Shown here piece after piece: positions 6,422-27,664 of a DNA stretch of 27,664 bases. Under the pieces are notes generated by a model that worked only from the letters and a program-made list of their open reading frames with translations, was not told where the DNA came from and did no database searches. The number at the start of each line of letters is the position of its first letter. Position 1 is the stretch's first letter. A program made the position numbers and the translations under genes. Origin of the DNA: a virus; the IMG/VR virus record IMGVR_UViG_3300007725_000020, positions 1 to 27,664 of that record; one strand, 5' to 3'.

Positions 6422-6884
6422 TACTCTCACCTTTAATCATTTTCAATAAATCAGCGGTTGAAACAATTAAATTATTATTCGTAACATTCGTTTGTGCAGC
6501 TTCTTTTGGACCTAATAATTCTTCGCGCGCAAATTTCTTTTTAGTAGAAATATCTGCTAGATCTTTGTTAGCTTCAAGTAACGTTTTCATTAATGTAGAA
6601 ACAACTTCAAACGCACGAGGCTGCTCAGATTGTTTTGCAATCTCAAGAATCTCATCCATAGCGTCATAGCCAGTGTGTATAATATCTTTAATATTTTGAC
6701 GAACTTCTTCAAGATCTTTAATGTTCTCGTCGTCATCTACTTCAGAAATTACAGCAGGCGGTTTGGCCTCTTCTTTAACTACAGGAAGATTTTCTTCTGG
6801 AAGTTCATGAACTAATTGTTCTTCTTGTTTCACTTCAGAAAATGGTCTAACACCAAGAACTTCTGAAATCTTATCATTACTCAT
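6414..6884 (-). CDS. 16: Terminase small subunit gp16
   Basis: The 156-residue protein (T4 gp16 has 164) is the DNA-recognition and regulatory partner of the gp17 motor. It lies directly upstream of gp17 and overlaps it by 8 bases (with the ATG start), which suggests translational coupling. The N-terminal 55 residues are acidic and probably disordered. Two helical segments follow (about 56-85 and 89-118), the central coiled-coil type region of T4 gp16. The C-terminus has an asparagine-rich linker (TNVTNNNLIVS) and a short tail (TADLLKMIKG). Assignment rests on size, helical layout and strict synteny. Confidence 0.9.
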   Translation of the reverse strand: MSNDKISEVLGVRPFSEVKQEEQLVHELPEENLPVVKEEAKPPAVISEVDDDENIKDLEEVRQNIKDIIHTGYDAMDEILEIAKQSEQPRAFEVVSTLMKTLLEANKDLADISTKKKFAREELLGPKEAAQTNVTNNNLIVSTADLLKMIKGESNE

Positions 6885-12680: not shown

Positions 12681-13918
12681 TATATACCTTTCATCATATA
12701 GTTCCAAGCAAAGTTGGTTTGTTCTGGTGCTTTAAGCATTCTCTTATTATTTACAAATCCTGGATGCACCCACCAGTCTTCGTAATTATTATGCTCGTCT
12801 ACTGCAACATCAGGAACGTAAAGAACATAACCAATTTTACTTAACACTTCTCGAGTTTTATCACGGAGATCATTACCCCACCAACAAGCATTATGTTGTA
12901 TTTGAATAATAGTAAATTCGTAATCGTGGTAAGGAATAGCTTCTATAGCTTTTTCAGTTGCACCTTCGGCATTAATACGGAGGAAATCAACATTATTCTC
13001 TAAACAATTTTGCTTAAACAAATAGTGGTAATTAATAGAAGCTGCATCATCTAGAACTATAGTGCTCTTTCTTTTGCGAGAATATTCAGCACACATTCTT
13101 TCTGAATTATCAATTGAGATACCTTTCCAATCAAAGTCTTTCTCGAGCAATAATGTATTATTGAATAACTCGGGATGGCCAGAACCAATTTCAATAAAAG
13201 TACCTTCTCGTTTACCATTTAAGAAAGATAATACAAACATATCTTGAAAATGACGAGAGTAATTTCTTTCTACTTTTTCAAGTCCTTCGAACGGAAATTT
13301 GTAATCTTCTTTCTGGTCCTTTGTATAAGCTAAAGTACTAGGGTAGCCAATTTTATTTAATAGCTTACTAATTTCTTCGTTTACTTTTGGCGAAATCTTT
13401 TCTTTATATTTAAGATCGAATAGGATATTCTTAGAATCATCACGACCATCAGTTTTCCATTTAGAATGACCATACAAAAATTTAAGCTCATCTATGCCAG
13501 GAAACTCTAGGTCATTGTCTAATTGTACTTCGTCTGGTTTATAATAATCTACACCAATTTTAGAATACATTAATGCATCACGCCATTCACTTCTTTCTAT
13601 ACAATGTTTGGCGAGAAAATAATAACCTTCTGGTCTTTCAGGTAAGATAGTTAGTGCCATTTTAAGCATGCCACTTACGGTATGAGCACGATCACCATTG
13701 CGCTCCATTAGTTTAGCGCCAAGAATAATAGACTTATATTGAAGCCATTTTTCTTCAAATGTTTTGCCTTCACAAAAGTCTGCAGCTCGTAAATACCAGC
13801 CAAACCCTGCTGCCCCTTGTAACAGTTTATCATATTCACGGGCTAGGGCATACATTTTAAATGGATTAGAATAGTCTAAAACAACGTCATTCAACGCTTT
13901 CATATTTGTAAATTTCAT
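12680..13918 (-). CDS. FkbM-type methyltransferase with helical-repeat N-terminus
   Basis: The 412-residue protein has an alpha-helical N-terminal half (about 15-130) with TPR-like helix pairs: ALAREYDKLL, FEEKWLQYKSIILGAKL, GMLKMALTILPERPEGYYFLA and WRDALMYSKIGVDYY. This recalls the repeats attached to many glycosyltransferases. The C-terminal half is a SAM-dependent methyltransferase of the FkbM class: motif I GTFIEIGSGHPELFNNT at about 239-255, acidic ISIDNSE at about 267-273, and VDFLRINAEGATEKAI at about 310-325, which corresponds to the FkbM D-x-E-G block with N-A-E-G here. The likely role is O-methylation of a sugar. It sits between the GH130-like and cytidylyltransferase genes, consistent with a glycan-modifying unit. 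Confidence 0.82.
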   Translation of the reverse strand: MKFTNMKALNDVVLDYSNPFKMYALAREYDKLLQGAAGFGWYLRAADFCEGKTFEEKWLQYKSIILGAKLMERNGDRAHTVSGMLKMALTILPERPEGYYFLAKHCIERSEWRDALMYSKIGVDYYKPDEVQLDNDLEFPGIDELKFLYGHSKWKTDGRDDSKNILFDLKYKEKISPKVNEEISKLLNKIGYPSTLAYTKDQKEDYKFPFEGLEKVERNYSRHFQDMFVLSFLNGKREGTFIEIGSGHPELFNNTLLLEKDFDWKGISIDNSERMCAEYSRKRKSTIVLDDAASINYHYLFKQNCLENNVDFLRINAEGATEKAIEAIPYHDYEFTIIQIQHNACWWGNDLRDKTREVLSKIGYVLYVPDVAVDEHNNYEDWWVHPGFVNNKRMLKAPEQTNFAWNYMMKGI

Positions 13919-13926
13919 TTTATACC

Positions 13927-14958
13927 TTACCTAGTCAAGAAATCAAAGAACACTTTTTGCGGCATTCTTAATATATATGACGCGTTATCTTGCCATCCAA
14001 ATGAGATAAGAATATCATTACCATGCATTGCGGCGCCGGTAACAAATTCAATATTGTAATCTTCGCTTCTTACATGATCGTAATATGTACCAAGAAAGTG
14101 AAATTCTCGTGAAGCATGAATTAGATTCCAATCATTATCCCATACAACTACTCGGTGCGCATAGTTGCCATCTTTGCGCATAAAAGGATCTTTTAATAGA
14201 TTGGTTTCATGACAAAAAGCTATACGTTGATTATCATTAATACGTAAAACTTGCGAGCCACCTCTTAAATCTTTACCCATTTCAACAATTTTCTTAGGAT
14301 CATTTACAACATCAGTAGTAACTCTATTTTCAATGTCATAATGAATAAGCTGTGTTGGGTTAGTCCACTTTACAAAATGGTATGGCATATCTAAAACAGG
14401 CATCCAGTTCTTTTCACAGTAACTAGAATCATCACCCGGCGCAGGAATAGGATTACGAGAAATTTCTTTCCATTGACCATCTACAAAATCAATTTCAGCC
14501 ATTTCCATTCGGCCTTTACCTTTGTCGTCATAACAATCGCGACGTACACCGCAAAGGTACATTTTATCTTCCCAAGAAAATAGACGAGCATCCTCAAGAC
14601 CGATAAAATTCCAGGTTGGCTCAGTGTCAAAAGTCATGTGAACACGTTGCGCGCTTTTTAAATTTAGATTATGATCTAATTCACACATAACATTATGGGT
14701 GCGTAATGTAACATCATTTTCAGGATGTACGTATACTAAAGGACCCCATTGATGTGGAAAACGTTTACCTTCGGAATGGTAGAGTGTGTAGTTCACGTGG
14801 CGTACATTAACAAAGATTTTGCCTTTATGAACAAAAATCGAGGGGTTCATAATACCTGACTCGTTTCCAAGTACTTCCTTAGGAAGAATTAAAGGATGTA
14901 ATGAACCACCTCGTTTTAAGGCATAGGTGGCCAAACCACCCATGTGTAGATCATGCAT
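13927..14958 (-). CDS. GH130-like five-bladed beta-propeller protein
   Basis: The 343-residue protein resembles the GH130 family of mannoside phosphorylases and related five-bladed propellers. Family-like blocks are IMNPSIFVHKGKIFVNVRH at about 36-54, GLEDARLFSWEDKMYL at 120-135 (the GxEDxR block) and EKNWMPVLDMPYHFVKW at 182-198 (the EKNWxP block). LRGGSQVLRI and FVTGAAMHGNDILISFG further on match later blades. Known family members cleave or phosphorolyse beta-mannosides, but similar proteins of unknown activity occur in phages near structural genes. I cannot confirm the catalytic acid. It starts with an ATG behind a GGAG Shine-Dalgarno and leads the three-gene carbohydrate module. Confidence 0.75.
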   Translation of the reverse strand: MHDLHMGGLATYALKRGGSLHPLILPKEVLGNESGIMNPSIFVHKGKIFVNVRHVNYTLYHSEGKRFPHQWGPLVYVHPENDVTLRTHNVMCELDHNLNLKSAQRVHMTFDTEPTWNFIGLEDARLFSWEDKMYLCGVRRDCYDDKGKGRMEMAEIDFVDGQWKEISRNPIPAPGDDSSYCEKNWMPVLDMPYHFVKWTNPTQLIHYDIENRVTTDVVNDPKKIVEMGKDLRGGSQVLRINDNQRIAFCHETNLLKDPFMRKDGNYAHRVVVWDNDWNLIHASREFHFLGTYYDHVRSEDYNIEFVTGAAMHGNDILISFGWQDNASYILRMPQKVFFDFLTR

Positions 14959-15821: not shown

Positions 15822-15876
15822 CATCTGTATCGTCATGTTTTGAGAGCAACTTTGTATCTCGCTTTTCTTCACTCAT
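15817..15876 (-). CDS. Possible 19-residue peptide (micro-ORF)
   Basis: ATG at 15876-15874 overlaps the end of the 2OG-oxygenase gene, with AGAGG about five bases before it. The frame encodes MSEEKRDTKLLSKHDDTDV and stops with TAA at 15819-15817. It is very charged and has no cysteine. The overlap and spacing look like coupled translation, but length alone gives little support and it may be chance. Confidence 0.25.
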   Translation of the reverse strand: MSEEKRDTKLLSKHDDTDV

Positions 15877-16435
15877 GTAAACCTCTATATAAAATAAGAT
15901 CAACAGGTAAGCAAACCCTCATATTAGAATAATCTGGATTTACTTGATGATAGGTAAAACTTGGAAATATTTTAAACTCTCCTGATTTTGGTGCATATAC
16001 CTTTTGTTTAAATAAAACATTAAATGCAGGATCATATCCACGATTTGCATTTGTTCTAGGATCCGAAAAGATAATTTCACCACCTAACTCATTTGCGCCA
16101 GCTAGTACATAGAATACAGCTGATAAATGAGAACCTCGATGATTATGAATAGGCATACTATATGGATTATTATTTGTTATCCATGAACGCATTGAATAAT
16201 CATCAAAATCTTTTATTGACTTGCCAATAGTACTAATCATATATTCGTCAAACTTTGAATAAGCTATAGCTTTAAAATCTTGTATAGCTTTATCTTGATT
16301 ATCGAATAAATTGCCACCGTCAGTTTCAGATTGTAGATTATTTAAATCGTAATTTATTAGAATATAATCTAATAAACCTGGAACTTCAAATTCACCCGAT
16401 CCAATTACTGTTGGCCACAAATTCTCAAAATTCAT
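15869..16435 (-). CDS. 2-oxoglutarate/Fe(II) oxygenase-like protein
   Basis: A 188-residue protein of the phage-type 2OG-Fe(II) oxygenase group (the family often named 2OG-FeII_Oxy_5). The family pattern is visible: PIHNHRGSHLSAVFYVLAG at about 95-113 with candidate metal His residues, a GGEIIFSDPR strand at 118-127, then PKSGEFKIFPSFTYHQVNP at 149-167 with the distal His at H163, and R173 as a candidate 2-oxoglutarate ligand. The substrate is unknown; family members hydroxylate proteins or small molecules. It overlaps the preceding gene by four bases (ATGA) and closes the radical SAM island, so it may modify the same substrate. It could also be a virion-associated oxygenase unrelated to the island. 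Confidence 0.82.
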   Translation of the reverse strand: MNFENLWPTVIGSGEFEVPGLLDYILINYDLNNLQSETDGGNLFDNQDKAIQDFKAIAYSKFDEYMISTIGKSIKDFDDYSMRSWITNNNPYSMPIHNHRGSHLSAVFYVLAGANELGGEIIFSDPRTNANRGYDPAFNVLFKQKVYAPKSGEFKIFPSFTYHQVNPDYSNMRVCLPVDLILYRGLHE

Positions 16436-17130
16436 GATGTAACCTTTTTCTTTAAATAATATCTTCCAAAGAATGTAGATGGGAAATTATCTAAAAGATC
16501 CGCAATTGTATTACGATCTGTTAAATGATTTTTAATTTCTACTTTTTTATCAGTCATTGGATACATTGACATTAAAGGAGTTCCATATTTTAATAAAACT
16601 TCATATGGTTCTTCTTTTACAGGAAATACTAAAAAGACATTAATTGTGTGTTGTTCGTAAAAGTTTAAAATTCCTGGTGATACCAAAATATCATGCTTTC
16701 TTAAATCTTCTGTATAATGACATTCGGTTAACATAAACTCTGTTTTATCAGAACCCTTAATAGCCCACGGTACGTGCAATTTTAAAATAGCTCGGTTTGC
16801 ATACAGCTCATTACCAACTTGTTCGTTAGAGTGTTGAGATGCTTCAAACTTCAATGGGCTGCGTTCAGGATTAACATATTTTACAGAACCGTTTGGATTG
16901 ACTTTAAAAATTACATCGGACCACAATTTAAAAACAATAGGTTTGCGAATGTAATTAACAACACCTGGACAAGCCTTTACTGTAGGACATGGGACGTGTA
17001 TACCAGACCTTGGATCAAATTCCTTAATGGTATTTTTGAGTTTTGACCACCAAGACGGTGTTTGCATTTTTATTTCTAGAGGCTGTAATTCAAAAACATT
17101 TCTATCATAAGTATAAGCATCTAATTTCAC
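16432..17130 (-). CDS. DUF6065-like protein of unknown function
   Basis: The 232-residue protein shows TPSWWSKLK (about 24-32), TVKACPGVVNYIRKPIVFKLWSDVIFK (about 49-75) and FLVFPVKEEPYEVLLKYGTPLMSMYP in the C-terminal half. The CP-GVVNY...PIVFKLWSD arrangement recalls DUF6065, a domain found in phage and bacterial clusters with Fe(II) oxygenases and known only by sequence. There is no clear catalytic motif. It overlaps the radical SAM gene before it and the 2OG oxygenase after it by four bases each, so all three are probably made together. The DUF6065 link is from memory of the pattern and is moderate only. Confidence 0.6.
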   Translation of the reverse strand: MKLDAYTYDRNVFELQPLEIKMQTPSWWSKLKNTIKEFDPRSGIHVPCPTVKACPGVVNYIRKPIVFKLWSDVIFKVNPNGSVKYVNPERSPLKFEASQHSNEQVGNELYANRAILKLHVPWAIKGSDKTEFMLTECHYTEDLRKHDILVSPGILNFYEQHTINVFLVFPVKEEPYEVLLKYGTPLMSMYPMTDKKVEIKNHLTDRNTIADLLDNFPSTFFGRYYLKKKVTS

Positions 17131-18212
17131 TGTTTATTTCCATCCATATAATTGAACCATAATCGCATTACACAATCAGGTAAATCTCTCACTCTATTTT
17201 TCCAATCCCACTGTGTATAACATCTAAATCCACATTTATTCCACCACTTACAAGATAAGCATCCATTCTCATCCATATATGCTTGCATCATTGAAGCGTT
17301 GTCTTTTCTATTTAGTGGTGTATTAAAATCTTCTTTTGTATATCTATCCCAACGACAGTTTGATGTAGAGTTATCAGGAAAGATAGTAACCTTATTTAAC
17401 GCTAAACAATGCATGTGGTTGTTATCATTATATATGAGATCTTTTATGGGATTGATGTCAGGATAGTTATGATATATGAATTTCAAAAACTCAAGATACT
17501 GACTATCTGATGGTATCAAATGATCAAAACCTTTATCAGGAATATAATCATCAAAATAAAAGTCATCAAACTTTTCGTATAAGTAATGAAAATATTCGTC
17601 GTCGTTCTTCATAAATTTTTCAATAGAAGGAACAGTTGCGACCATATTAATTGATGTAATATAATCTGCAAAGTATTCTATATTTTTGGCATATGGACCT
17701 TTAGTAGGACGACCGTCAAAATCATACGAACAAATAATATAAGACGGGATACCAGCATCGTTTAATTTATCAAGCAAGTTTCTAACTAACTCTCTTTTAC
17801 TAAATTGAAATGAAGTTACCCATACCACTTTAATAACATGATTATGTTTATCATATAACTTTTTAATTTCAAGTAGGAAATCGTAATATACATCGTAAGC
17901 CCAATCTGATATTCTATCTTGAAACAGCTCACCACCTACCATATTAATTTGACAAATTTGTACACGATCTTTTACTTTAATTAAATGTTCTTCAACAAGA
18001 GGCAGCTTTGAGAATATATCTTCGCGCGATAGACCAACAGTTGATGCTTTATCGTGGTGACAAAAATCGCAATTTAAATGACAGTTTTCAAATAACGTTA
18101 ATTCAATTTCGGCAATAGTAGGTCTCTTACTTTCTAGCAAGATCTTAGTCATTTCAAATTGTTTAGGATCGCCATCAGTAACATCAACTACTTCAATAAT
18201 ATTAGAGGCCAA
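17127..18212 (-). CDS. Radical SAM/SPASM enzyme (RS1)
   Basis: The 361-residue protein has a radical SAM cluster CHLNCDFC (C44, C48, C51) and a GGE motif (MVGGELF, about 91-97). A complete SPASM pattern follows: C269, C286, C318, C321, C327, C331, C347, with CX2CX5CX3C at CLSCKWWNKCGFRC. Such enzymes make radical modifications of peptides, using two auxiliary [4Fe-4S] clusters. The start is TTG at 18212. It lies eight bases after a strong AGGAGA and gives an 11-base overlap with the preceding gene; the next ATG is 20 codons in. Substrate unknown; the CHxS proteins of this island are candidates. Confidence 0.9.
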   Translation of the reverse strand: MASNIIEVVDVTDGDPKQFEMTKILLESKRPTIAEIELTLFENCHLNCDFCHHDKASTVGLSREDIFSKLPLVEEHLIKVKDRVQICQINMVGGELFQDRISDWAYDVYYDFLLEIKKLYDKHNHVIKVVWVTSFQFSKRELVRNLLDKLNDAGIPSYIICSYDFDGRPTKGPYAKNIEYFADYITSINMVATVPSIEKFMKNDDEYFHYLYEKFDDFYFDDYIPDKGFDHLIPSDSQYLEFLKFIYHNYPDINPIKDLIYNDNNHMHCLALNKVTIFPDNSTSNCRWDRYTKEDFNTPLNRKDNASMMQAYMDENGCLSCKWWNKCGFRCYTQWDWKNRVRDLPDCVMRLWFNYMDGNKQ

Positions 18213-18600
18213 ACCACATCTCCTCTTTGTAGTATTCGTAAATATCCGGCACCATGCCTTTATCTTCTTTGAAATCTAGTTTGCTTAAAATAGTGTCATA
18301 TGTTTCTTTGTCTTCTGAATAAGGAACAAAATATGGATCATTATTAAACAATAAACCAGGATCATCAAGTACTTCATAAAAATTTTCCCGGTAATCTCGC
18401 TCTAACCATTTTGCATAACAAATAGCAACAGCATAAGATTTGGCAGGATATATCCATTGATCTACATATTCATTAAAATGACGTAATGCATCTTCTATGA
18501 TATTATCAGACACGACAATATCTACCTTATTCAAGTCATCGGTATATTCTTTATGTATTAAATGAAACGCGGCTTGTCTAGCTTTCCAATCTTTCATCAT
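18202..18600 (-). CDS. Unrecognised small helical protein in the radical SAM island
   Basis: I do not recognise this 132-residue protein. It appears mostly alpha-helical and rich in aromatic and acidic residues (IIEDALRHFNEYVDQWIYPAKSY, WLERDYRENFYEVLDD, DIYEYYKEEMWFGL). One cysteine, no catalytic motif, no membrane segment. It overlaps the end of the previous radical SAM gene by 23 bases and the start of the next by 11, so it is embedded between two such enzymes. A partner or substrate-binding role is possible but not shown. The ATGATG start leaves two possible first codons. Confidence 0.65.
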   Translation of the reverse strand: MMKDWKARQAAFHLIHKEYTDDLNKVDIVVSDNIIEDALRHFNEYVDQWIYPAKSYAVAICYAKWLERDYRENFYEVLDDPGLLFNNDPYFVPYSEDKETYDTILSKLDFKEDKGMVPDIYEYYKEEMWFGL

Positions 18601-19489
18601 ACCAATCTAATAAACCTTTATATCCATTACAACTATTATCTAGATCTTTGACATAACGATAGTGTTCTGTTAAACAACCACCGTAATATTTGCAGTTGCG
18701 ACATATATCGGATACATTTTTCTCTGGTTCCATTTTAGCCCAAAGTTTGTATTCCTCATATGTATCGTATTCTAAGAAGTACTCTTTATCATATTTATCG
18801 AACTCTAATACAGCAAATTTACCGTTAGGCGTAATGTAAACATGATCATCGCTGAATGCACTGTACTTACCATCTAAAGCGTCTTCAATTAAAAACTCAT
18901 TTATAAAATCAAAGTTCTTTGGTGTTTTGGCTGTTATCCATTTTTTAACAAATTCTTCAAAATCTTTATGAGTAACATTATGCGCATTTGCTTGGTTAAT
19001 AGAATATGGTTTAATTTCTACCGAAGCAACTTGAGCACACATATTTAAAGTAAAGATCATGAACTCAACATCCATTTCTAAAACCTTTGGCGAAGCCAAA
19101 ATTAAAACCGCAAGTGGCTTAACCGAACTCATAATATTATTCAGAACGAACTGTTCTTTTTCACGAGCAGAAAAATCGTATGATACACTTATAGTAATGT
19201 CATCATCATTAAAGAAATCAGGTAATGCAGAGTAATTCGTATTTACATTAATTGGTCCGTCGTAATATTTTCTCATTACTTCTTTAATAGAATAAAAATA
19301 TTCAGGAGTTAACAAACCAATTTCACCTCCATATAAATCAATATGATCTATTGGATCGGTTATTTTTGACATTACTTCGTCTAATTTTTCTGGACTTATT
19401 CTATTCCTATTTGCTAATTGCTCAGGAGTAAGATAACAAAAGTCGCATCTAAAATTGCAGTAATAAGTTGGATTTATAGATAGGTTCAT
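18578..19489 (-). CDS. Radical SAM enzyme with twitch-like C-terminus (RS2)
   Basis: A compact 303-residue enzyme with CNFRCDFC (C11, C15, C18) almost at the N-terminus and a GGE motif (DLYGGEIG, about 51-58). The C-terminus carries CRNCKYYGGC and one later Cys (C263, C266, C272, C287). This is CX2CX5C...C without the fourth close Cys, so probably one auxiliary cluster (twitch type) instead of full SPASM. A TPNGKFAVLEF hairpin before it fits the twitch strand. It overlaps RS3 by four bases (ATGA). Substrate unknown. Confidence 0.87.
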   Translation of the reverse strand: MNLSINPTYYCNFRCDFCYLTPEQLANRNRISPEKLDEVMSKITDPIDHIDLYGGEIGLLTPEYFYSIKEVMRKYYDGPINVNTNYSALPDFFNDDDITISVSYDFSAREKEQFVLNNIMSSVKPLAVLILASPKVLEMDVEFMIFTLNMCAQVASVEIKPYSINQANAHNVTHKDFEEFVKKWITAKTPKNFDFINEFLIEDALDGKYSAFSDDHVYITPNGKFAVLEFDKYDKEYFLEYDTYEEYKLWAKMEPEKNVSDICRNCKYYGGCLTEHYRYVKDLDNSCNGYKGLLDWYDERLES

Positions 19490-20547
19490 ATCATTTTAAC
19501 CGATATCATATTAGATTCATTTACATAAGGGGTAACCAGCGACGGATCCAAACCATTCATTTGAAGAATACTTGGCGCTAATGTTTTCATTTGACGGCAA
19601 TGATCTTCTACAATTCCTTCACGCTTCATATCACGAATAGTTTTCTTGCAGCCATTACATATCTGGAACATTGGGCAAGTGAAACATGCCATCTTCATTG
19701 ATTGAATATTAGGATCTTGTTGAAGCGGCGTTACAAAACCACCTGACATTTCTTCTTCAAAATCTATAGGATAATCCATATCATCAGCAAATGATCCGCA
19801 ACTATAGTAATCACCACCCGGATTAAATGCTCTAATACCCGTATCGCAACTTCTATTTTGAGGACAAGTTGTACTGCAACCTCTATCTCTTAAATTACGA
19901 ACCATTTGTTTAGTGTTGTATTCCCACTCCGTCAATCCGCGTTCATATATTTCAACATATATTTTATAGATCTTACTTAAACGAAAAGTACTACCTTGTA
20001 CACCAGACGCCATAGCATAATTCAGTTTACACTCAACACCCATTTTCTTCGCAAGCAAAACATTATCAATTGCTCTATCTTCGTTTTCATCTACAATTAC
20101 AGAAATAAAGTCGGGTCTATATCCAACCAACTCTAGCATTTTATCTGATACTTTCCAAAAGTCTTCTTCACTAAAATCAGAATAATCACCTTTTAAACGT
20201 CCGCCTCCGTATTGGAAAGATGTAGTAATGCCCATTCGTGGATGTCTAAAAAGATCTAACCATTTTTCCGGTTTAACATAAAATGGCCAAAGATTACTAG
20301 TAAAGCTAATAGTGGCCGGCATATCGTGTTCATCTAAAAATTCTATAATTTTCCAATAGTATTGTGGATCTACCATTAACGGATCACCGCCATTTACAAT
20401 GATAGTATTTGTATCCGGGTATCGTTTTAGAAATCTAAAGATATAATCTAGATCTAACAATCCAGCGTTATCTGGGTCGATTGCAGTTGACGAACAAAAT
20501 GTGCATTTAAAGTTACACACTTCGGTTGGCTTGATGATTAGGTCCAT
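19486..20547 (-). CDS. Radical SAM/SPASM enzyme (RS3)
   Basis: The 353-residue protein has CNFKCTFC (C11, C15, C18) and GGD at 53-55 in place of GGE. The C-terminal SPASM set is C234, C250 (with GX4C at GGDYYSC), C288, C291, C297, C300 and C317. Two further cysteines (C224, C228) precede it, so an altered or additional metal site is possible. The close block is CX2CX5CX2C (CFTCPMFQICNGC), one residue shorter than usual between the last two. It follows RS4 by 17 bases and overlaps RS2. A late-promoter-like octamer lies inside the end of RS4. Peptide or protein substrate inferred from SPASM. Confidence 0.9.
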   Translation of the reverse strand: MDLIIKPTEVCNFKCTFCSSTAIDPDNAGLLDLDYIFRFLKRYPDTNTIIVNGGDPLMVDPQYYWKIIEFLDEHDMPATISFTSNLWPFYVKPEKWLDLFRHPRMGITTSFQYGGGRLKGDYSDFSEEDFWKVSDKMLELVGYRPDFISVIVDENEDRAIDNVLLAKKMGVECKLNYAMASGVQGSTFRLSKIYKIYVEIYERGLTEWEYNTKQMVRNLRDRGCSTTCPQNRSCDTGIRAFNPGGDYYSCGSFADDMDYPIDFEEEMSGGFVTPLQQDPNIQSMKMACFTCPMFQICNGCKKTIRDMKREGIVEDHCRQMKTLAPSILQMNGLDPSLVTPYVNESNMISVKMI

Positions 20548-20564: not shown

Positions 20565-21641
20565 CTATAGCTGTTTCACTGGGATTATATTACTATTTAT
20601 TTTGTATTCTGCAGATTTTATCCATCCTTTTTCTGCGGCTAATGTCATCATCAAAGTTTTAGGCGCAGGACATACATCATCCATCCAAGTAAGTTGGTGA
20701 CAGTCAGAATGGCAATATTGAAATACGGGACAACTATAACAACGTTCATCACGTTGGTGAAGTTCTTTGTCAATAATATCCATGCGTTTGGTGCAAGTTC
20801 TTACAATACTCGGTGGTTCATCAATAGTTCCATACCAATCAGTAGGAGCCGAGTTAGGGCAACCTGCAACAGTTCCATCAGCATTTATTGTATGCAATTT
20901 TTGTTCGCAATCCCTACAAAATGTTCCACTGAAAAATAGATTATTATCGAATTTATCGTATACTGTTCTAAGGAAATTATTCTCTACTGGATGGCCCTTA
21001 GTTGTCTCGTGCATTTTCATCCAAAACTTATCTAAGTCTCGGTTATGAGGAAAGATTGCTGGATTGAGTTCAGCATTACCATTATGAGTTAGACGTTCGT
21101 ATGAAATACTATCGACACCTAATGAATGCATGTAATCAGCAATCTCAAGTGGATCCATTTTTACGACATCAGTAGATACAGAAATGAAACATTGAACATA
21201 TATTCCTTCTGCAACTAAACGTCTTACATTATCTTCCCAAAGCTTTCTTTGCTTATCATTTGCAAAACGAATGTTAGGATCCCATGATGTACCAAGGGAA
21301 TTTAGGTTTTCCTTGAAGAATTTAATGTGCTCAGGTTTGAGCTTATAGGTAAGATTTGTTGTAATACCATGACCGCATCTATCACCCCATTTTTCTTTGG
21401 TCATATTATAGAAGGTCATAATATCATCTATAGGAGCAAGCATCGGCTCACCCCCGTGGTATTCAAAATGGATTTGATTATCTCCGGTATCTAACCCATT
21501 ACACCAATTAGCAGTCTTTACTGGATCAAAATATATTTTTCTACCATTTGTACCGGACGTAAAACAATGAGAGCAATTGAGGTTACAAGTCTCCGTTGTT
21601 TTCACGTATACGATTAAGTGTTTCTGAGTCGCCAATGCCAT
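20565..21641 (-). CDS. Radical SAM/SPASM enzyme, anSME-like (RS4)
   Basis: The 358-residue protein has CNLNCSHC (C19, C23, C26) and GGE (YHGGEPML, about 61-68). A full SPASM set is C245, C261 (GX4C at GTVAGC), C301, C304, C310, C314, C324, with CYSCPVFQYCHSDC. The order of motifs resembles anaerobic sulfatase-maturating enzymes and other peptide maturases, which oxidise Cys or Ser or form crosslinks. A third nearby Cys (C242) precedes the set. The ATG at 21641 lies inside the previous gene (59-base overlap) and lacks a clear Shine-Dalgarno. I keep it because it adds the usual first strand (HLIVYVKTT) before the CxxxCxxC; a GTG shortly before the cluster is the alternative. Confidence 0.9.
   Translation of the reverse strand: MALATQKHLIVYVKTTETCNLNCSHCFTSGTNGRKIYFDPVKTANWCNGLDTGDNQIHFEYHGGEPMLAPIDDIMTFYNMTKEKWGDRCGHGITTNLTYKLKPEHIKFFKENLNSLGTSWDPNIRFANDKQRKLWEDNVRRLVAEGIYVQCFISVSTDVVKMDPLEIADYMHSLGVDSISYERLTHNGNAELNPAIFPHNRDLDKFWMKMHETTKGHPVENNFLRTVYDKFDNNLFFSGTFCRDCEQKLHTINADGTVAGCPNSAPTDWYGTIDEPPSIVRTCTKRMDIIDKELHQRDERCYSCPVFQYCHSDCHQLTWMDDVCPAPKTLMMTLAAEKGWIKSAEYKINSNIIPVKQL
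20594..20601 (-). promoter_or_regulatory. Possible internal late promoter before RS3
   Basis: AATAAATAGTAATA on the minus strand lies within the last codons of RS4, about 47 bases before RS3. The octamer fits the set seen before virion genes, but it is inside coding sequence (Lys-Ile-Asn-Ser-Asn codons), so chance is likely. Confidence 0.25.
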
Positions 21642-22053
21642 AAGATACTATCAAACCTTTTTCATAATTTAGTGCACGATGTTTTGTGTTGCTTTTTATA
21701 TATGCGAACTCGCCGGACTTAAGCGACACATGTTTACCATCTATTTCTAGATCTTTAATTCCATCTAAACATTTTATTATAACATCAACTGGGTCAGTAT
21801 GTAAACCAAAAGTTGGGCCATTTTTCTTATTGAAGAAGATATGAGCAGTACCGTTTATATCAAGGTTCTTTTCATATTGCTCAACCTTTATTGTAAAATC
21901 TGATAGAATGTAACTAGATATCTTTGCTTGGTAAACCCAAAAGTTTTCAGCATCGACATAATGTTGTTTGCCGTCATGATCTATAATAGAAACATCGTGA
22001 TTATTAAAGCATTCTTCGCTCAACAAAAAAGTTTCAAATTCCAAAAAGGTCAT
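21583..22053 (-). CDS. Cupin/JmjC-like Fe(II) oxygenase candidate
   Basis: The 156-residue protein has the single-domain cupin layout of small JmjC/cupin_8-type oxygenases: GLHTDPVDVIIKCLDG with H85 and D87, then a GKHVSLKSGEFAYIK hairpin and KHRALNY with H125. Together these form an HxD...H facial triad, as in 2-oxoglutarate/Fe(II) enzymes. Some cupins with this motif bind metal without being oxygenases. It overlaps the RS5 gene by four bases (ATGA) and extends 59 bases into RS4. Its place between two radical SAM genes suggests it acts on the same substrate. No substrate can be named. Confidence 0.72.
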   Translation of the reverse strand: MTFLEFETFLLSEECFNNHDVSIIDHDGKQHYVDAENFWVYQAKISSYILSDFTIKVEQYEKNLDINGTAHIFFNKKNGPTFGLHTDPVDVIIKCLDGIKDLEIDGKHVSLKSGEFAYIKSNTKHRALNYEKGLIVSYGIGDSETLNRIRENNGDL

Positions 22054-23207
22054 AAGTTCTTTCCGGCAAATATATCTTTTATTTCTTGTAGTTCATTGTC
22101 ATCATGGATAGCAAACTTTCTTCTATAACCATTCTTATCTGCTTCAACTGAGTAATCGGTCCAATCATACATTTTAATAGCAGATAAATTATAGTTGTGC
22201 ATATGTTTAATCATATTATCTTTTGGTGCAATACACCTATTGACACCAAGGTAATCTCGTAGTAAAATAATCTTACGATTATAGCAACTAAAAAACATTG
22301 GGCAAGTTTCACATTCAGTACCTTTTGCTCTTTCAATTTGAGAGTCAACTGCTATCTTCACATCTTCAAATTTTTCAATTTTAAATATATCATCGTACAC
22401 TGACATATTTTCATATAGGAAAGGAGATATCCACCATTCGCCTCTCTTATAATTCAAAACAGTATAATTGATACCAGCGTGTGAATGATCTATCATAATG
22501 TTGTTTATTCTAGTATCTTTACTTAGTACATTAAAGTAATCATTAAATGTATCAAGTGATTCTAAAATAATATTTGGTTTATGTGATCTTGAAACTGACG
22601 GAATAAAATCAATTGTGGTACTAAATTCTTTTACAATATCGGCATGTAATTTAGAATAGTCTAATCCATAATCTTTTATATTTACTAGAAATGTAAAGAC
22701 TACGTCATGCTCACTATTTTCACTAATATAATTTAGTTTACGTCTAATATTTTCTACATAATTAATATGATAAAATTTATGTGGATCAATTGCAATACCA
22801 ATTTCAATTTCGGTATTTAAACTAATACTATTTCTTAACCAATCACACCACTTATCTAATTCATCATCAATAAGAGTAGTAATAAAAGCAAGGATAGGAG
22901 AATGCTCATTAATCATGTCGACTAAATGAGGCATTACATCATAGAAGTTTTCGGATGATAGAAAATCAGTTGGGCCTATAATAATTTCATCTATTAATAG
23001 ACCCTTATTGTGAATATCGTTTATAAATTCAATTGCTTTTTCTAATTGATGTTCATCACTTGCATTACCGCGTCTATGAACAAAACATCCTGGACATTGG
23101 TGACGACAGCCATCAAGAACATCTAATTGTAACTTTACCGCCGAGACCGGTTTTGTCACAGTCTCGGTTGTAAGAGCGTGATAAAGATTATTCTTGATTA
23201 TCGGCAT
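22050..23207 (-). CDS. Radical SAM enzyme, IGPTDF subfamily, twitch-like C-terminus (RS5)
   Basis: The 385-residue protein has CRHQCPGC (C34, C38, C41). In the usual GGE place it has IIIGPTDFLS (about 76-84). The C-terminus carries CETCPMFFSC and C325 (C299, C302, C308, C325), a four-Cys twitch-like set. It is clearly paralogous to RS6 (25130-26308): both share C..xC.GCFV, IGPTDF-[LF]-S, and a CX2CX5C block followed by a helix and a final Cys. A 60-residue tail after the last Cys has no motif I know. Function unknown; a peptide modification role is inferred from context. Confidence 0.85.
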   Translation of the reverse strand: MPIIKNNLYHALTTETVTKPVSAVKLQLDVLDGCRHQCPGCFVHRRGNASDEHQLEKAIEFINDIHNKGLLIDEIIIGPTDFLSSENFYDVMPHLVDMINEHSPILAFITTLIDDELDKWCDWLRNSISLNTEIEIGIAIDPHKFYHINYVENIRRKLNYISENSEHDVVFTFLVNIKDYGLDYSKLHADIVKEFSTTIDFIPSVSRSHKPNIILESLDTFNDYFNVLSKDTRINNIMIDHSHAGINYTVLNYKRGEWWISPFLYENMSVYDDIFKIEKFEDVKIAVDSQIERAKGTECETCPMFFSCYNRKIILLRDYLGVNRCIAPKDNMIKHMHNYNLSAIKMYDWTDYSVEADKNGYRRKFAIHDDNELQEIKDIFAGKNL

Positions 23208-23215: not shown

Positions 23216-24022
23216 CTATTCTGTTTCTTCTACAAAAGGCTCAACATCAATAGTAACAAAGAAACCTATCGGCATCATTTCAATTATTCTATTAACAAAT
23301 TTAGTTTGATTCATCATATAGAATAAATCTTTTGCATAGTACTTCGGCGCATCATTAAAAATAGATTTATTATATTCCATTTTAAGACCAACACGATTAA
23401 GTACCAAGAAAAATGCATCGATACCCATTGTGACAATATTAATGATATTAGGACCGCACTGAACCGGTTTATCTAAAACTTTTATTTCGTCCACAACACC
23501 TTTTAAATCTAATTCTTTTTCTTTAGATTCATCAGACATATTTTCATAAATTTTAGATAATGCAAATGGAACAGTTTGCGCAATAGTATCTATTAAGTCA
23601 TTTACCAATTTTTCATTATCTTTGATATATTCAAAAATTTGTTCTTCATTAAATAATGCGTACAACTCTTTATCAACCGGTGTTAACTCATGATCGAGTC
23701 TATGCTTAATGATGTTTGCAACAATACGATCTAATAAAGGACATTCTACTAAAAACTCTGAAGTAATATATTCAGTAATTAAGTCAGAGTCAACAGCAGA
23801 AAACGATGCCTTAAAGTTTGTATTAGCTAGATAAATTATGATGTGTTTAGCAGATAGCTTTTCACGTGATTCTGCGTAGTTAACCCACAATTCAAAATCT
23901 TCTTCAGATTCTTTTTGTTTATAGATTTCTACTAAATCTTGAGGTGATAGCGGAAGAGGATAGCACTTTGCATCTACCTCATCCGCCGTTTTGATTCTTA
24001 CTTCAATTTGTTCATCATTCAT
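23216..24022 (-). CDS. Unrecognised protein in the radical SAM island (268 aa)
   Basis: I do not recognise this protein. It is mixed, mostly helical and acidic (EIYKQKESEEDFELWVNYAESREKL; LIDTIAQTVPFALSKIYENMSDES), with a central segment DKPVQCGPNIINIVTMGIDAFFLVLNRVG and a C-terminal hairpin (MPIGFFVTIDVEPFVEETE). There is no catalytic or membrane motif. I chose the ATG at 24022, preceded by AAGGTG at seven bases; a GTG nine bases earlier is the longer alternative. It lies ten bases after the 366-residue gene and eight before RS5. It could be a peptide-binding partner of the radical SAM enzymes, but no RRE (PqqD-like) fold is evident by eye. Confidence 0.65.
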   Translation of the reverse strand: MNDEQIEVRIKTADEVDAKCYPLPLSPQDLVEIYKQKESEEDFELWVNYAESREKLSAKHIIIYLANTNFKASFSAVDSDLITEYITSEFLVECPLLDRIVANIIKHRLDHELTPVDKELYALFNEEQIFEYIKDNEKLVNDLIDTIAQTVPFALSKIYENMSDESKEKELDLKGVVDEIKVLDKPVQCGPNIINIVTMGIDAFFLVLNRVGLKMEYNKSIFNDAPKYYAKDLFYMMNQTKFVNRIIEMMPIGFFVTIDVEPFVEETE

Positions 24023-24032
24023 GTATATCACC

Positions 24033-25133
24033 TTACAATTTATATTTGTGTATCAAGTATGGAATACGATTTTGTCTTTTAGCAAAGAACTGAACGTCTG
24101 TATCCAGTAATTTAATTTCCTCGGATAGATTATTTATGTCCCAATTACGTTCTAAAACCTTTTTAACGGTTGGCAATAAGTGATTAATTTCATTATATTG
24201 ATCGTTATATTCCCAGCCATCAATAGTATCAGTTTTACTTGTATGAGCAGCTTTAAAGTTTGGATCATCTTTTACTTTATTCCACAAATCAATCAATTTG
24301 TAGATGGCAACTGAGTAATTGCCAGTATTAGCTGCATCAACATAAACATCTTTTAGGAATTGTTTTTTATCTGTAGCATATCCATTTTCAGGTGTTGCAT
24401 TCTCGTTCATCCAGTCAATAACTGCACAAATATAACCTAGATCTCTTCTTTGCGCTGTAAATTGTTGAATTACATCTTTTGCGATTTCAGCCGAATGGAT
24501 GGTAAATTTTTCAATTAATAAACTTCTAACATCTACGCATGGGTATTTTTCGTTGAGAAAAAATAATAAATCATAACTGAAGTTTTTACCATTTTCAAAT
24601 ACCACACCATAATCAGGGAATTCAGGATCTGCTAATACAGCTTCACAATGCGCTCGTGCATCAGCCATAGTATCAGAATCACGCATTAGAGTTAAAATGG
24701 TATCTGTTTCAATTACTGTATTTACAAAGTCAACCGCAATTGCATTCACATCGTACGATGGATCTGTGTAAAAATTAGAAGCACGCAATAGACCAGCAAT
24801 GTATCTTACATACACATTTAACATTTCACTTTCATGTGTATATACTATAATAGCTTTTTCGCTATTTTGTATAAAATCAATAGAACTTGCTTCATCCCAT
24901 TGGATGAAATTTAAATATGTAGAAGCGCCATCTCTAATAGCGTTAGCAAGTTCTACATACTCAACTGTAGCAAGCTGAGCTCCTTCTAATGAAGGACCAG
25001 GATGAACCACAAAAATTTTGCGAGGATCTTTATTGTGGTAGAATGAATTTAATTCGGCAACAACAGTCTGGATATTTGTCGTATTCGTAATATACTTTTT
25101 GTTGTTTAAGTAATATAGGCTTTGGCCGATCAT
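24033..25133 (-). CDS. Unrecognised protein in the radical SAM island (366 aa)
   Basis: I do not recognise this protein. Residues 39-51 (KIFVVHPGPSLEG) look like a strand-loop-helix of an alpha/beta fold, and a later strand AIIVYTHESEML could belong to the same sheet. The C-terminal two thirds are helical (ALTYAKDV-type segments such as SAEIAKDVIQQFTAQRRD). There is no nucleotide-binding or Fe-S motif. It overlaps the RS6 stop by four bases (ATGA) and is followed by the 268-residue gene. Its coupling to RS6 suggests a shared role. This is the second gene of the island after the CHxS proteins. Confidence 0.65.
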   Translation of the reverse strand: MIGQSLYYLNNKKYITNTTNIQTVVAELNSFYHNKDPRKIFVVHPGPSLEGAQLATVEYVELANAIRDGASTYLNFIQWDEASSIDFIQNSEKAIIVYTHESEMLNVYVRYIAGLLRASNFYTDPSYDVNAIAVDFVNTVIETDTILTLMRDSDTMADARAHCEAVLADPEFPDYGVVFENGKNFSYDLLFFLNEKYPCVDVRSLLIEKFTIHSAEIAKDVIQQFTAQRRDLGYICAVIDWMNENATPENGYATDKKQFLKDVYVDAANTGNYSVAIYKLIDLWNKVKDDPNFKAAHTSKTDTIDGWEYNDQYNEINHLLPTVKKVLERNWDINNLSEEIKLLDTDVQFFAKRQNRIPYLIHKYKL

Positions 25134-26308
25134 CCCGCTTTTCCTCCTAGGATTTTTAATGCGTCATCATTCCAAGTAAATGCGAATGGATTGTAGTGAT
25201 CTAACACTTCTTTATTAAGTACACAACCATCGATGTTCAAAGTTTCCTGCGCTTCAAATATTAATCTGTTGGCGCAAGCAACCGCAAATTTACAACCGGA
25301 ACAATCTTTAACTTTCGTAGATCTATTTATCCCTTTGGCTACTAATTGATTTTTTCTTTCAAGGATCTCTTCAAACGATAAACCTGTTACATCAAGATTC
25401 TTATTCTTAAGGAAGAACGCTTGTTCGTGTAACATTACATTTAAATGAGTCGTAGGTCCATTTTCGCCCGGAATAATTGTTAAACCAACAAAGTTAATCG
25501 AGTTACAATATAGGTTAGCCATTGACATAACGGTTTCGTTATAGTTGCCTTCATCAATAACTCGACCTAAGAATTCGTTCCAACTAAATAGGTTACTACG
25601 TTGAACATGTTCTGATTGTGCTCTTGAGAAAGCTGGGTTCATTTCAACGATTGTTTCATATTCTTCAGTAGCTTTCTTAATAATTCTATTGTATGTTTCT
25701 TTATCAATCTTTTTGCCAACAACATTAGATGCTTGTAAAGTCCAAGACCAATCCATTTTCTTAGGAGTGTTTTCTTTAAAAAATTTAACTTTACGCATTA
25801 CTTCTTCGTAATAGATAATATCATCGAGCATCTTATCTATTTTACTAATTGGCATAATAAATTCGATAATCATCTCACGACGGAATTTATCTTCATCATC
25901 TAGAATATTAAAGATTTCTTGGACACGTTCCATAGTTGCAACATCAAATTTGGCAGGTGCCGCAATACGTGCTCCAGTATGCTCACGCATAATTTCTTGA
26001 ACTGTTTTGTTATTAAGAATATCTTCAGTATTGTTTGCACTAAAGAAATCAGTCGGACCAATTACAAATTCTCTTAGATTTAATCCAGTTCTTTTTACAC
26101 CATCGGCTAATTCCTTAGCACGATCTATGATTTGCTGATTCATTGTTGGATCAATATTTTTATCAACGAAACAGCCTAGACACGCCTGTTCGCAACCAGA
26201 TAAAACTTCCATCTGAATTAGTACATCAAATTTAACTGCATCAGAAGGCGGAAGACTCTCTGGTCCCGAATAACGCATTTGTTTACAATATGACTCTTGC
26301 ATTGCCAT
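25130..26308 (-). CDS. Radical SAM enzyme, IGPTDF subfamily, twitch-like C-terminus (RS6)
   Basis: The 392-residue protein has CEQACLGC (C39, C43, C46). A variant second motif FVIGPTDFFS (about 81-90) stands in place of GGE. The C-terminus carries CSGCKFAVAC and C362 (C336, C339, C345, C362). It is the radical SAM gene closest to the CHxS genes, two bases after the second one ends, and its Shine-Dalgarno (GGGAGAAG) lies within the codons for the RGRR end of that gene. It is paralogous to RS5. Being first in the island and immediately next to the putative substrates, it is the best candidate to act on them, though that is inference. Confidence 0.87.
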   Translation of the reverse strand: MAMQESYCKQMRYSGPESLPPSDAVKFDVLIQMEVLSGCEQACLGCFVDKNIDPTMNQQIIDRAKELADGVKRTGLNLREFVIGPTDFFSANNTEDILNNKTVQEIMREHTGARIAAPAKFDVATMERVQEIFNILDDEDKFRREMIIEFIMPISKIDKMLDDIIYYEEVMRKVKFFKENTPKKMDWSWTLQASNVVGKKIDKETYNRIIKKATEEYETIVEMNPAFSRAQSEHVQRSNLFSWNEFLGRVIDEGNYNETVMSMANLYCNSINFVGLTIIPGENGPTTHLNVMLHEQAFFLKNKNLDVTGLSFEEILERKNQLVAKGINRSTKVKDCSGCKFAVACANRLIFEAQETLNIDGCVLNKEVLDHYNPFAFTWNDDALKILGGKAG

Positions 26309-26361
26309 GATTATCTTCTCCCTCTCGATCCATGGCAGCTATAATGACAGCTAGCATGACA
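26300..26361. repeat. 62-base direct repeat, copy 1
   Basis: Identical in all 62 bases to 26689-26750, 389 bases apart. It covers the codons for the CHxS end of the downstream paralogue, its stop codon and the first three to four codons of RS6, including that gene's ribosome binding site. Confidence 0.95.
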
Positions 26362-26697
26362 TAGATAAGCACTAATGTTTCTACTTGTTATTCTTGGTTC
26401 TATCACGTCAACAGTTCTTCTTACAAGCGTTGCTAAGGTGTCAACGATGTCTTGTGGGTAAATAATATTACCAGTTCTGATTCCGGCTGTATCGTAATAA
26501 TTATTATATGTACTATTTGACGCACCTACATATTCAAAACGATGGTAATAGTTTGCATAAGTACTATAACTCCAAGAGCCGCCAGTAGCACGAACATATA
26601 CTCGAACAGTTACCGTAATTGTTCTATCAAAGGTTCTTAACTGAGCTCCACCATATGTTTGAATCCACGAGTTTATATCAGCTGGTGACATTGCCAT
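26311..26697 (-). CDS. CHxS-tailed protein B, putative modification substrate
   Basis: The 128-residue protein has a beta-rich body (QLRTFDRTITVTVRVYVRATGG, WSYSTYANYYHRFEYV, RTGNIIY), a helix (TLATLVRRTVDVIEPRI) and the end CHASCHYSCHGSRGRR. The three cysteines (C113, C117, C121) all lie in the tail in a regular C-H-x-S tetrad repeat; the body has none. About 60% of residues match the upstream copy. The body resembles a small fibre-associated domain. The tail could carry thioether, oxidised or other radical SAM-made changes, or bind a metal through Cys/His. Its SD region (AGGGAGAAG) is formed by the tail codons of the preceding paralogue. I know of no characterised protein with this tail. 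Confidence 0.88.
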   Translation of the reverse strand: MAMSPADINSWIQTYGGAQLRTFDRTITVTVRVYVRATGGSWSYSTYANYYHRFEYVGASNSTYNNYYDTAGIRTGNIIYPQDIVDTLATLVRRTVDVIEPRITSRNISAYLCHASCHYSCHGSRGRR

Positions 26698-26750
26698 GAT
26701 TATCTTCTCCCTCTCGATCCATGGCAGCTATAATGACAGCTAGCATGACA
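26689..26750. repeat. 62-base direct repeat, copy 2
   Basis: Identical to 26300-26361. It covers the CHxS end, stop and following gene start at the first paralogue. The flanking bodies of the two genes differ widely, so this segment is either recently copied, homogenised by recombination or held by selection. Confidence 0.95.
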
Positions 26751-27080
26751 ATATAGAGCACTAATGCTTCTATTACTAATTCTACCTTCTATTAAATCTA
26801 CTGTGCGTCTAACGACACTACTAATTGAACCGATAACATGGCTTGAATATATTATATTGCCAGTATATATGCCGCTATTTAAATAATTATTGTATATAGA
26901 TGTAGGAGCATTTACATATTCAAAGCGCTGATAATAAAGCCCGCTCGTCGTATAACTCCAAGAGCCGCCAGTACCGCGAACATATGCATATACTCTAAAA
27001 TATATAGTTCTGTCAAATGTGCGCAACTGAACGGCTGCTTGGCTTTGCAAATTATTATTTAACGTAGAATACGTTGCCAT
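26700..27080 (-). CDS. CHxS-tailed protein A, putative modification substrate
   Basis: The 126-residue paralogue has the same layout as protein B: QLRTFDRTIYFRVYAYVRGTG, GGSWSYTTSGLYYQRFEYV, YTGNIIY, VRRTVDLIEGRISNRSISA and the end CHASCHYSCHGSRGRR (C111, C115, C119). It overlaps the tail fibre stop by one base (TAATG), so translation is likely coupled to the fibre. The identical 16-residue tail on a divergent body suggests the tail is the functional core and the body a docking or display domain. It could be a small adhesin or fibre-tip subunit. The RGRR end could be a protease site or nucleic-acid contact; nothing seen decides this. Confidence 0.88.
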   Translation of the reverse strand: MATYSTLNNNLQSQAAVQLRTFDRTIYFRVYAYVRGTGGSWSYTTSGLYYQRFEYVNAPTSIYNNYLNSGIYTGNIIYSSHVIGSISSVVRRTVDLIEGRISNRSISALYCHASCHYSCHGSRGRR

Positions 27081-27664
27081 TATACTTTAACCTCAACCTC
27101 ACCATTTTCAGCATTACCTAGTGCAATACCAATTATATCATGATTATTTATTCCTTGAGTGCCATAGTCAACACCCTTACCTTTACCATCACGATCAGCA
27201 ACAACCCATTGACCTTTCTTAACTTCACCATTTACTTTAACAGGAATACGTCCTTTAAGCGCAATAAATGGATTCATCTTAGATTGAATTGAATCGTCAT
27301 CAAGATAATCAATGTGTTCGTTCATACGGTATGCTGGGTTAGTAGATACCGCACCGGCAACTGGCATTCCAGGTTGATATAATGTTACTTCAGAATCACC
27401 GTCAAGATTGATACCTAGTACTGTACCTGGTTCATAGATTTCGTCAGCCTCATAACGTTCCGCCAAGTCCGCCCAACGAGCTGAAGTTGCAGTACCAACA
27501 AATACACCATCATTTGCAATATAAGATCTATCTGAGCCATCTTGTCTAAATTGAACAATACGGTTAGAGTTACCACCTGATACAATGTAGAATCTGTTAG
27601 AGTGGTATTCAATCTTACCTACATCGTTACCTGGGTTGCCAGTCCAAGATTCATCGCCTTCTTC
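27080..27664 (-). CDS. Tail fibre protein, C-terminal end (5' part beyond window)
   Basis: The frame is open from the right edge to the stop at 27080, giving 194 residues of the C-terminus; its start is outside the window. A TTG at 27466 in the same frame is internal, not a start. The sequence has a YHSNRFYIVSGGNSNRIVQ beta segment, then ARWADLAERYEADEIYEPGTVLGI and PVAGAVSTNPAYRMN. This combination (DLAErYeADe-YEPGTV, AGVVSTNPAYxMN) is typical of the distal conserved part of phage tail fibre and spike proteins that end in a folding or trimerisation domain. It binds the host or supports fibre folding. The CHxS genes follow at once. Confidence 0.85.
   Translation of the reverse strand, partial: EEGDESWTGNPGNDVGKIEYHSNRFYIVSGGNSNRIVQFRQDGSDRSYIANDGVFVGTATSARWADLAERYEADEIYEPGTVLGINLDGDSEVTLYQPGMPVAGAVSTNPAYRMNEHIDYLDDDSIQSKMNPFIALKGRIPVKVNGEVKKGQWVVADRDGKGKGVDYGTQGINNHDIIGIALGNAENGEVEVKV
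27145..27152 (-). promoter_or_regulatory. Possible internal late promoter before CHxS genes
   Basis: GGAATAAATAATC on the minus strand holds the AATAAATA octamer, 65 bases before CHxS protein A. It is inside tail fibre codons, so it may be chance; if active it would let the CHxS proteins be expressed above the fibre. Confidence 0.25.

Follow-up and report, generated by a model that had tools for sequence, protein, structure and literature searches.

A fibre-linked Cys-His-x-Ser repeat tail pairs with a radical SAM cassette, its putative modifier, in tailed phages and some predatory bacteria

The stretch of DNA analysed here (the window, 27,664 bases) is a fragment of a T4-like myovirus, with portal, tail tube, sheath, terminase, neck, and sheath-stabiliser genes identified by PHROGs. 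At its right end, the minus strand carries, in order, the C-terminal part of a fibre gene, two tandem genes whose products share one C-terminal tail, and a cassette of radical SAM (rSAM) genes (Table 1). A sequence-only reading of the window had reported both open reading frames of the pair as ending in CHASCHYSCHGSRGRR, and we confirmed them as minus-strand genes with products of 128 and 126 amino acids (aa). That reading put the identity of the two bodies at about 60%, the value that we measured for the proteins, and its link to a tail fibre is borne out by the PHROG match of the gene directly upstream. It also counted six adjoining radical SAM genes; all six encode CxxxCxxC, members have Pfam or PHROG matches, and four of the six reach Pfam Radical_SAM at E ≤ 2e-4.

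Table 1. Tail-bearing genes, upstream fibre gene, and cassette genes in the window
Feature	Position	Strand	Details
Long tail-fibre protein, C-terminal end, cut by the window end	27080..27664	-	phrog_19602 tail fiber, E 4e-11; directly upstream of the pair
Tail-bearing protein 1	26700..27080	-	126 aa, body + CHASCHYSCHGSRGRR
Codons of CHxSCHxSCHxSRGRR tail, protein 1	26703..26750	-	
Tail-bearing protein 2	26311..26697	-	128 aa, tandem paralogue, 60% identical to protein 1
Codons of CHxSCHxSCHxSRGRR tail, protein 2	26314..26361	-	
rSAM subfamily D, CEQACLGC	25130..26308	-	groups with 22050-23207 in phrog_31457
P366, conserved cassette protein, no known domain	24033..25133	-	
P271, conserved cassette protein	23216..24031	-	adjoins tail in 39/39 loci with adequate flanks
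rSAM subfamily D, CRHQCPGC	22050..23207	-	phrog_31457
Cupin protein	21583..22053	-	PF07883, E 6e-7
rSAM/SPASM subfamily A, CNLNCSHC	20565..21641	-	full SPASM cysteine pattern
rSAM subfamily B, CNFKCTFC	19486..20547	-	PF04055, E 7e-9; phrog_1802
rSAM subfamily C, CNFRCDFC	18578..19489	-	PF04055, E 5e-7; phrog_1802
P132, small conserved protein	18202..18600	-	phrog_20737; homologues in Phosso and two Bdellovibrionota loci
rSAM subfamily F, CHLNCDFC	17127..18212	-	phrog_1802 'radical SAM', E 7e-22
Conserved protein downstream of rSAM_F	16432..17130	-	phrog_7084
2OG-Fe(II) oxygenase	15869..16435	-	PF13759, E 6e-11

Two other regions of the window were recorded. The tail sheath stabiliser encoded at 6884-8971 has a long C-terminal extension that matches virion structural, baseplate, and tail-fiber PHROGs. 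Region 11925-14958 encodes a fusion of a nucleotidyltransferase with a mannose-6-phosphate isomerase-type cupin, and the two genes before it have no Pfam match; the genes of this region are possibly a glycan-related part of a host recognition island.

The tail-coding DNA of the two window genes is identical at 48 of 48 bases (51 with the stop codon), whereas identity in the DNA of the bodies is 62%, which points to local gene conversion within a recently homogenised pair. Because the identity of the two tails stems partly from this homogenisation, it is by itself no evidence of constraint, and we dropped it as an indication of function. The AF2 model of protein 2 has a pLDDT of 78, with low confidence in the tail part, and its body fold had no significant match in PDB or BFVD. 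By sequence, no solved relatives were found for the tail-bearing body or for P271.

We scanned IMG/VR with a degenerate DNA pattern corresponding to CHxxCHxxCHxxRGRR, without requiring a stop codon. The pattern is present in at least 119 IMG/VR stretches, and every listed match, when translated, stops exactly at a stop codon. By our own arithmetic, a pattern of ~43 bits should yield ~0.01 matches in the viral collection; given this excess and the stop codons that were not asked for, chance is no explanation. None of the three Cys, the three His, or the final Arg residues varies in a set of 137 distinct proteins; Ser rarely takes the place of the Gly in RGRR, and position four of the unit holds Ser or Asn in nearly every case. 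Synonymous codons in the tails are used nearly evenly (TGC 262, TGT 298; CAT 280, CAC 269) while Cys, His, and Arg remain invariant across phages, which indicates constraint on the tail. The S position of 549 units is occupied by Ser (466), Asn (56), Ala (22), Gln (3), or Arg (2), and never by Gly, Thr, Val, or Ile, though the x position holds Thr 98 times and Gly 79 times. If the two positions drew their non-Ser residues from one distribution, the probability of this outcome would be ~1e-30.

The same tail occurs on groups of bodies without detectable similarity, only three of the eleven groups being merged by profile comparison, and no further Cys is present in 124 of 183 bodies. The PHROG family phrog_35144, of unknown function, ends in the tail and collects unrelated bodies via the tail alone. 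The number of CHxS units ranges from 2 to 14: there are two in L376, three in nearly all proteins, four in L275, 13 in L370, and 14 CH units in L375 (5036-5740, plus strand); the two longest tails have NVPV/NVV spacers and come from contigs of 240-250 kb. In a few natural variants, the RGRR end or one His is missing. The variant CHYSCFTSSCHFSRGRR, examined directly in L227 (L228 has a like layout), contains CFTS, and thus an F-x-S unit; the Cys is kept there even where one His is replaced by Phe. Among isolates, the tail is present in Burkholderia phages FLC6, FLC8, and SURPRISE13, Agrobacterium phage Atu_ph07, Sinorhizobium phage Phosso, and Pseudomonas phage pPa_SNUABM_DT01. In the 151-kb record IMGVR 3300025138_000014, from which loci L075 and L216 derive, there are three copies of the tail, one of them ~18 kb from a tandem pair, and this record possibly holds two cassettes.

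HMMs built from the window and isolate genes were run over the tail loci. Among the matches listed, rSAM genes were found in the fetched DNA at 121 of 126 viral tail loci; the other five had short flanks, and Pfam identified rSAM genes in all five of the whole records. In bacterial and archaeal genomes, 23 pattern matches comprised 15 genuine tails, all with rSAM neighbours, and eight chance frames, which lack both a stop codon at the end and any cassette gene (0/8). Matches of a 4xCHxx DNA pattern at 120 viral loci were mostly chance frames, and cassette genes were present solely where there were genuine CHxS repeats (rSAM genes at six loci, P271 only at one); this pattern also yielded the fusion proteins described below. 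The phages DT01 and KvM-Eowyn are related according to PMC12390700; DT01 has both the tail and rSAM genes, and KvM-Eowyn has neither.

For the reverse comparison, we retrieved 80 relatives of the SPASM enzyme (rSAM_A) with a divergent query. A three-repeat tail is adjacent in 76, a two-repeat tail in one, and the contig ends just after the enzyme in the remaining three. In the first set of close rSAM_A relatives, 67 of 79 loci had no tail within 8 kb, an apparent failure that gene order and contig ends explain: in a marine rSAM_A group, the tail lies ~11.6 kb away on the opposite strand. Of the 33 longer records in this first set, 17 have the tail, two have the variant (L227 and L228), and 14 contigs, checked by coordinates, end before the position; the remaining short contigs are outside this count. 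We found no true exception to the linkage in either direction. The pairing of tail and rSAM genes is thus strong, as far as sequence comparison can establish it. Tails found regularly without a radical SAM neighbour would have refuted the inference in the sequence-only reading that the adjoining enzymes act on the tail; such tails were not found, and the inference is strongly supported by the two-way linkage, with the modification itself unmeasured.

At 39 loci with adequate flanks, the neighbours of the tail, besides the ever-present P271 (Table 1), include rSAM_F (33 loci), rSAM_A (32), P366 (30), the cupin (30), rSAM_B (27), rSAM_D (22), and rSAM_C (18), with some absences due to contig ends. 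Subfamilies A, B, and F are all present in the four isolates examined gene by gene (SURPRISE13, Phosso, Atu_ph07, and DT01). The CxxxCxxC motif and the SPASM pattern CX9-15GX4C-gap-CX2CX5CX3C-gap-C are invariant in nine of nine rSAM_A sequences, and the SPASM HMM scores 25.3 on rSAM_A against a cut-off of 27. P271, a candidate for a substrate-presenting partner, yields a confident AF2 model (pLDDT 90) for which no fold match was found in PDB. Similar 2OG-Fe(II) oxygenases are encoded repeatedly at the cassettes of other phages and of Bdellovibrionota, the phrog_7084 protein is only a probable member of the cassette, and no protease for leader cleavage was identified.

Two isolate cassettes have features of their own. 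In Atu_ph07 (L008, ~14150-14360), gp164 is annotated from an internal start, and, followed further upstream, the open frame takes in the CxxxCxxC motif of rSAM enzymes, which makes this an intact subfamily C enzyme. In SURPRISE13 (L006, 14403-15580), two tandem dihydrofolate reductase genes lie within the rSAM cassette, between F and B.

The sequence-only reading had likened the tail and its neighbours to the His-Xaa-Ser system (HxsA/HxsB/HxsC/HxsD, TIGR03976-TIGR03979). The resemblance holds for the tandem H-x-S target beside more than one rSAM gene and the variable repeat number, and the product is unknown in the Hxs system as well. Membership was rejected on HMM scores: none of eight tail proteins matched HxsA (TIGR03979) at E ≤ 1, or when repeated at E ≤ 0.1; rSAM_A scored 33.3 bits with HxsB (TIGR03978) against a cut-off of 370; and the subfamily B enzyme (19486-20547) scored 20.6 bits with HxsC (TIGR03977) against a cut-off of 267.9. 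Unlike Hxs targets, the units described here open with Cys, the tail ends in RGRR, and the context is that of phages and fibres.

No cassette rSAM qualified for a named equivalog family, as all NCBIfam matches were far below the cut-offs. The curated families nearest to rSAM_A are TIGR04083, CbpB, AmcB, PapB, DynA, and HxsB, and its weak matches to the thioether-forming PapB (6e-10) and the cyclophane-forming AmcB (2e-10) and DynA (5e-9) are about equal. Its nearest solved structures are distant rSAM entries only, anSME among them. The maturases of three-residue cyclophanes (FxsB, GrrM/OscB, AmcB, and DynA) and of ranthipeptides (PapB) resemble rSAM_A in having a complete SPASM motif and an aromatic-x-S target; however, their substrates are small precursor peptides, whereas the substrate proposed here is a folded, fibre-linked protein of ~125-370 aa, and five rSAM subfamilies occur together. 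QhpD, which accompanies the quinohemoprotein amine dehydrogenase gamma subunit, and the anaerobic sulfatase maturases are rSAM/SPASM enzymes that act on a functional protein rather than a peptide natural product, but their motifs and contexts are unrelated, and rSAM_A scores 24 bits against the QhpD cut-off of 453 and 38 against the anSME cut-off of 349. The module shows one RiPP-like trait, in that a ribosomal protein, the presumed substrate, is encoded beside its putative maturase and the two consistently co-occur.

In the literature, rSAM genes are mentioned in several phages as accessory or unusual. The islands described in PMC7029224, for FLC6 in PMC8066314, for S13 in PMC11898562, and for 332-Vera in PMC12390700 contain the same genes or represent the same island type; the parts of these papers that were available name rSAM, cupin, and 2OG-Fe(II) oxygenase genes and do not link them to a target or a CHxS tail. 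In pelagimyophages, the corresponding island is described as the host recognition cluster, with added, variable rSAM cassettes for which the available text gives no target (PMC7029224). We found no paper that ties phage rSAM genes to a tail motif; subscription papers and preprints were outside the coverage of this search. The system thus works like rSAM maturase-target pairs and resembles HxsA repeats, and no precedent was found for the context of a virion fibre or predator adhesin.

The tail gene is repeatedly connected to fibres. Of 64 loci with 4 kb or more of upstream DNA, 45 have a C-terminal fibre domain directly upstream on the same strand. It is placed either just before the tail gene (~340-530 bases) or just before a cupin-rSAM_A-tail arrangement (~2.0-3.2 kb). 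Peptidase_S74 is a self-cleaving fibre chaperone, and one gene (L303, 2486-3433, minus strand) encodes a body, CHTSCHSSCHDSCHGD with four CHxx units, and Peptidase_S74 (E 1.5e-11); it adjoins genes for rSAM_A, rSAM_B, P271, P366, and a 2OG-Fe(II) oxygenase. Upon self-cleavage, the repeats would thus form the mature C-terminus of this protein. Its close relative in L284 (5274-5846) is without the chaperone and ends in CHGDGPGNGGGV. Another protein (L311, 1642-2865, minus strand) carries five CHxS units, then a spacer rich in Pro and Thr, and ends in a region that, judged by eye and without a Pfam hit, looks Hint/intein-like.

ESI-MS/MS of Atu_ph07 assigned most virion proteins to three gene clusters, one of which is 'CDS 170-215' (PMC6102473). 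Under either numbering gp215 is the major head protein, and the tail-bearing protein gp170 comes first in this cluster, an indication that gp170 was among the virion proteins detected; this indication depends on the cluster boundary given in one paper, without a peptide list. The description of the tail-bearing product as a phage structural protein is therefore supported by the upstream fibre genes and the S74 fusion, and indirectly by the Atu_ph07 virion proteome.

The module also appears outside phages. The ten genomes examined further are mostly Bdellovibrionota MAGs, and nine of the ten have no phage sheath gene (PF04984). The tenth, a Bacteroidetes MAG, has the sheath and the tail on one contig, which is probably a phage contig, and the contigs of the archaeal and Rickettsiales MAGs could be phage fragments as well. 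In Bacteriovorax MedPE-SWde C14 (L235), the module adjoins genes for pyruvate kinase and a DsbA-like protein, and in Halobacteriovoraceae SAT2788 C7 (L234), it adjoins a gene for a Peptidase_S74 protein with a prepilin-like leader; ABC transporter genes are also present in these neighbourhoods, and neither genome has a phage sheath gene. MAG binning is a caveat for the bacterial loci, and the pyruvate kinase neighbourhood argues for a chromosomal location despite it. The module is present in unrelated tailed phages and, judging from these gene neighbourhoods, on the chromosomes of some predatory Bdellovibrionota. Bdellovibrio uses S74 fibre adhesins for prey recognition (PMC10769870). Its mosaic adhesive trimer (MAT) fibres are phage-like S74-chaperone adhesins in a predator, and the L234 module has an S74 neighbour; unlike MAT fibres, for which the available part of the same paper describes no radical modification, the tail-bearing proteins here are separate and small.

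We consider it likely that the fibre-linked tail is modified by the adjoining cassette, although this reading is built on sequence alone and the chemistry is unproven, as there is no mass or structure of any tail. In the proposed mechanism, the CHxS repeats would be the substrate of a dedicated cassette consisting of rSAM A (with SPASM), B, C, D, and F, the proteins P271, P366, and P132, the cupin, and the 2OG-Fe(II) oxygenases. Each unit may be viewed as C-[H-x-S], with HxS as the likely reactive sites; P271 would present the substrate, the rSAM enzymes would install a crosslink or other radical-made bond on the unit, and the iron oxygenases would hydroxylate the tail. The most likely bond would run from the His ring to the beta-carbon two residues further along, giving a three-residue cyclophane as in FxS systems, with a Cys thioether as the alternative. 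The finished tail would be a rigid, chemically unusual fibre tip in contact with the surface of the host, for a phage, or of the prey, for a predator. FxsB-type enzymes make F-x-S cyclophanes by bonding at the beta-carbon of the third residue. That Gly and beta-branched residues are excluded from the S position, though x is often Thr or Gly, fits a bond at the beta-carbon of the third H-x-S residue, and the natural F-T-S unit in L227 points to the same F-x-S-type bond. For the H-x-S bond in particular, our confidence is about half of that in modification of the tail as such.

A serious alternative, which we hold to be possible but short of an even chance, is a Cys-centred thioether of the sactipeptide, ranthipeptide, or QhpD type, or a Cys-His bond, in place of the H-x-S cyclophane. 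The weak matches of rSAM_A, about as good to PapB as to AmcB and DynA, leave room for this bond, as does the Cys, which is unchanged even in L227 despite the replacement of one His by Phe; however, the cysteines would need acceptor residues, which the loose x position does not supply, and the sole position that is variable yet restricted is the residue two after His, as would suit a beta-carbon bond. The preference for Ser or Asn at this third position could equally come from hydrogen bonding or metal-site geometry instead. The tip of the T4 long tail fibre has HxH iron sites, and Cys/His clusters often bind metal. Accordingly, the tail might be a metal-binding (Fe, Zn, or Fe-S) or disulfide tip, with the rSAM enzymes acting elsewhere or only assembling the metal site, as the invariant Cys and His, the lack of other Cys in most bodies (124/183), and the abundance of iron enzymes in the cassette would allow. 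We regard such a tip as unlikely, since it would make four to nine rSAM enzymes needless and would leave unexplained the absolute two-way linkage, the expansion to 14 units, and the absence of Gly and beta-branched residues from the S position.

The rSAM enzymes could also have a target other than the tail, be it the body, the fibre, or a small molecule. If the tail were a recognition tag that recruits the enzymes, the modified group would lie on the body or the neighbouring long fibre; a constant tail on differing bodies, ending in an RGRR that resembles a recognition element, is what a tag would look like. Yet 13-14 copies separated by spacers would be unusual for a tag, every unit is constrained at Cys, His, and the S position, and the L303 repeats sit just before a self-cleavage domain, at what would be the mature fibre end, so a tag is in our judgement quite improbable. 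It is harder still to credit that the rSAM genes are auxiliary metabolic genes of a host-recognition island, associated with the tail by chance or hitch-hiking. The description of rSAM cassettes as variable islands in pelagimyophage host-recognition clusters (PMC7029224) is compatible with that explanation, but it is already contradicted by the linkage in jumbo phages of Burkholderia, Agrobacterium, Sinorhizobium, and Pseudomonas and on bacterial chromosomes, and by the absence of any true exception in either direction.

A broader formulation of modification by the cassette has, in our view, about an even chance of being correct: a mobile radical module, common to unrelated tailed phages and Bdellovibrionota, would build a multi-crosslinked Cys-His-x-Ser adhesin tip, with a new crosslink, the new families P271, P366, and P132, and as many as nine rSAM enzymes working on a single short repeat. 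If modification of the tail is confirmed, dozens of rSAM enzymes would have a defined substrate, and the long-noted rSAM islands of pelagimyophages and jumbo phages would be accounted for. The module would offer a compact enzyme-substrate pair, open to direct test, whose product is probably a peptide crosslink not yet known, and the tip chemistry would be lost in recombinant fibres made without the cassette. The presence of the same module in predatory bacteria ties phage fibres to predator adhesins. Viruses would then finish their fibre tips with radical enzymes, yielding a new class of radical-modified receptor-binding tip and a layer of host recognition that is invisible in the gene sequence alone.
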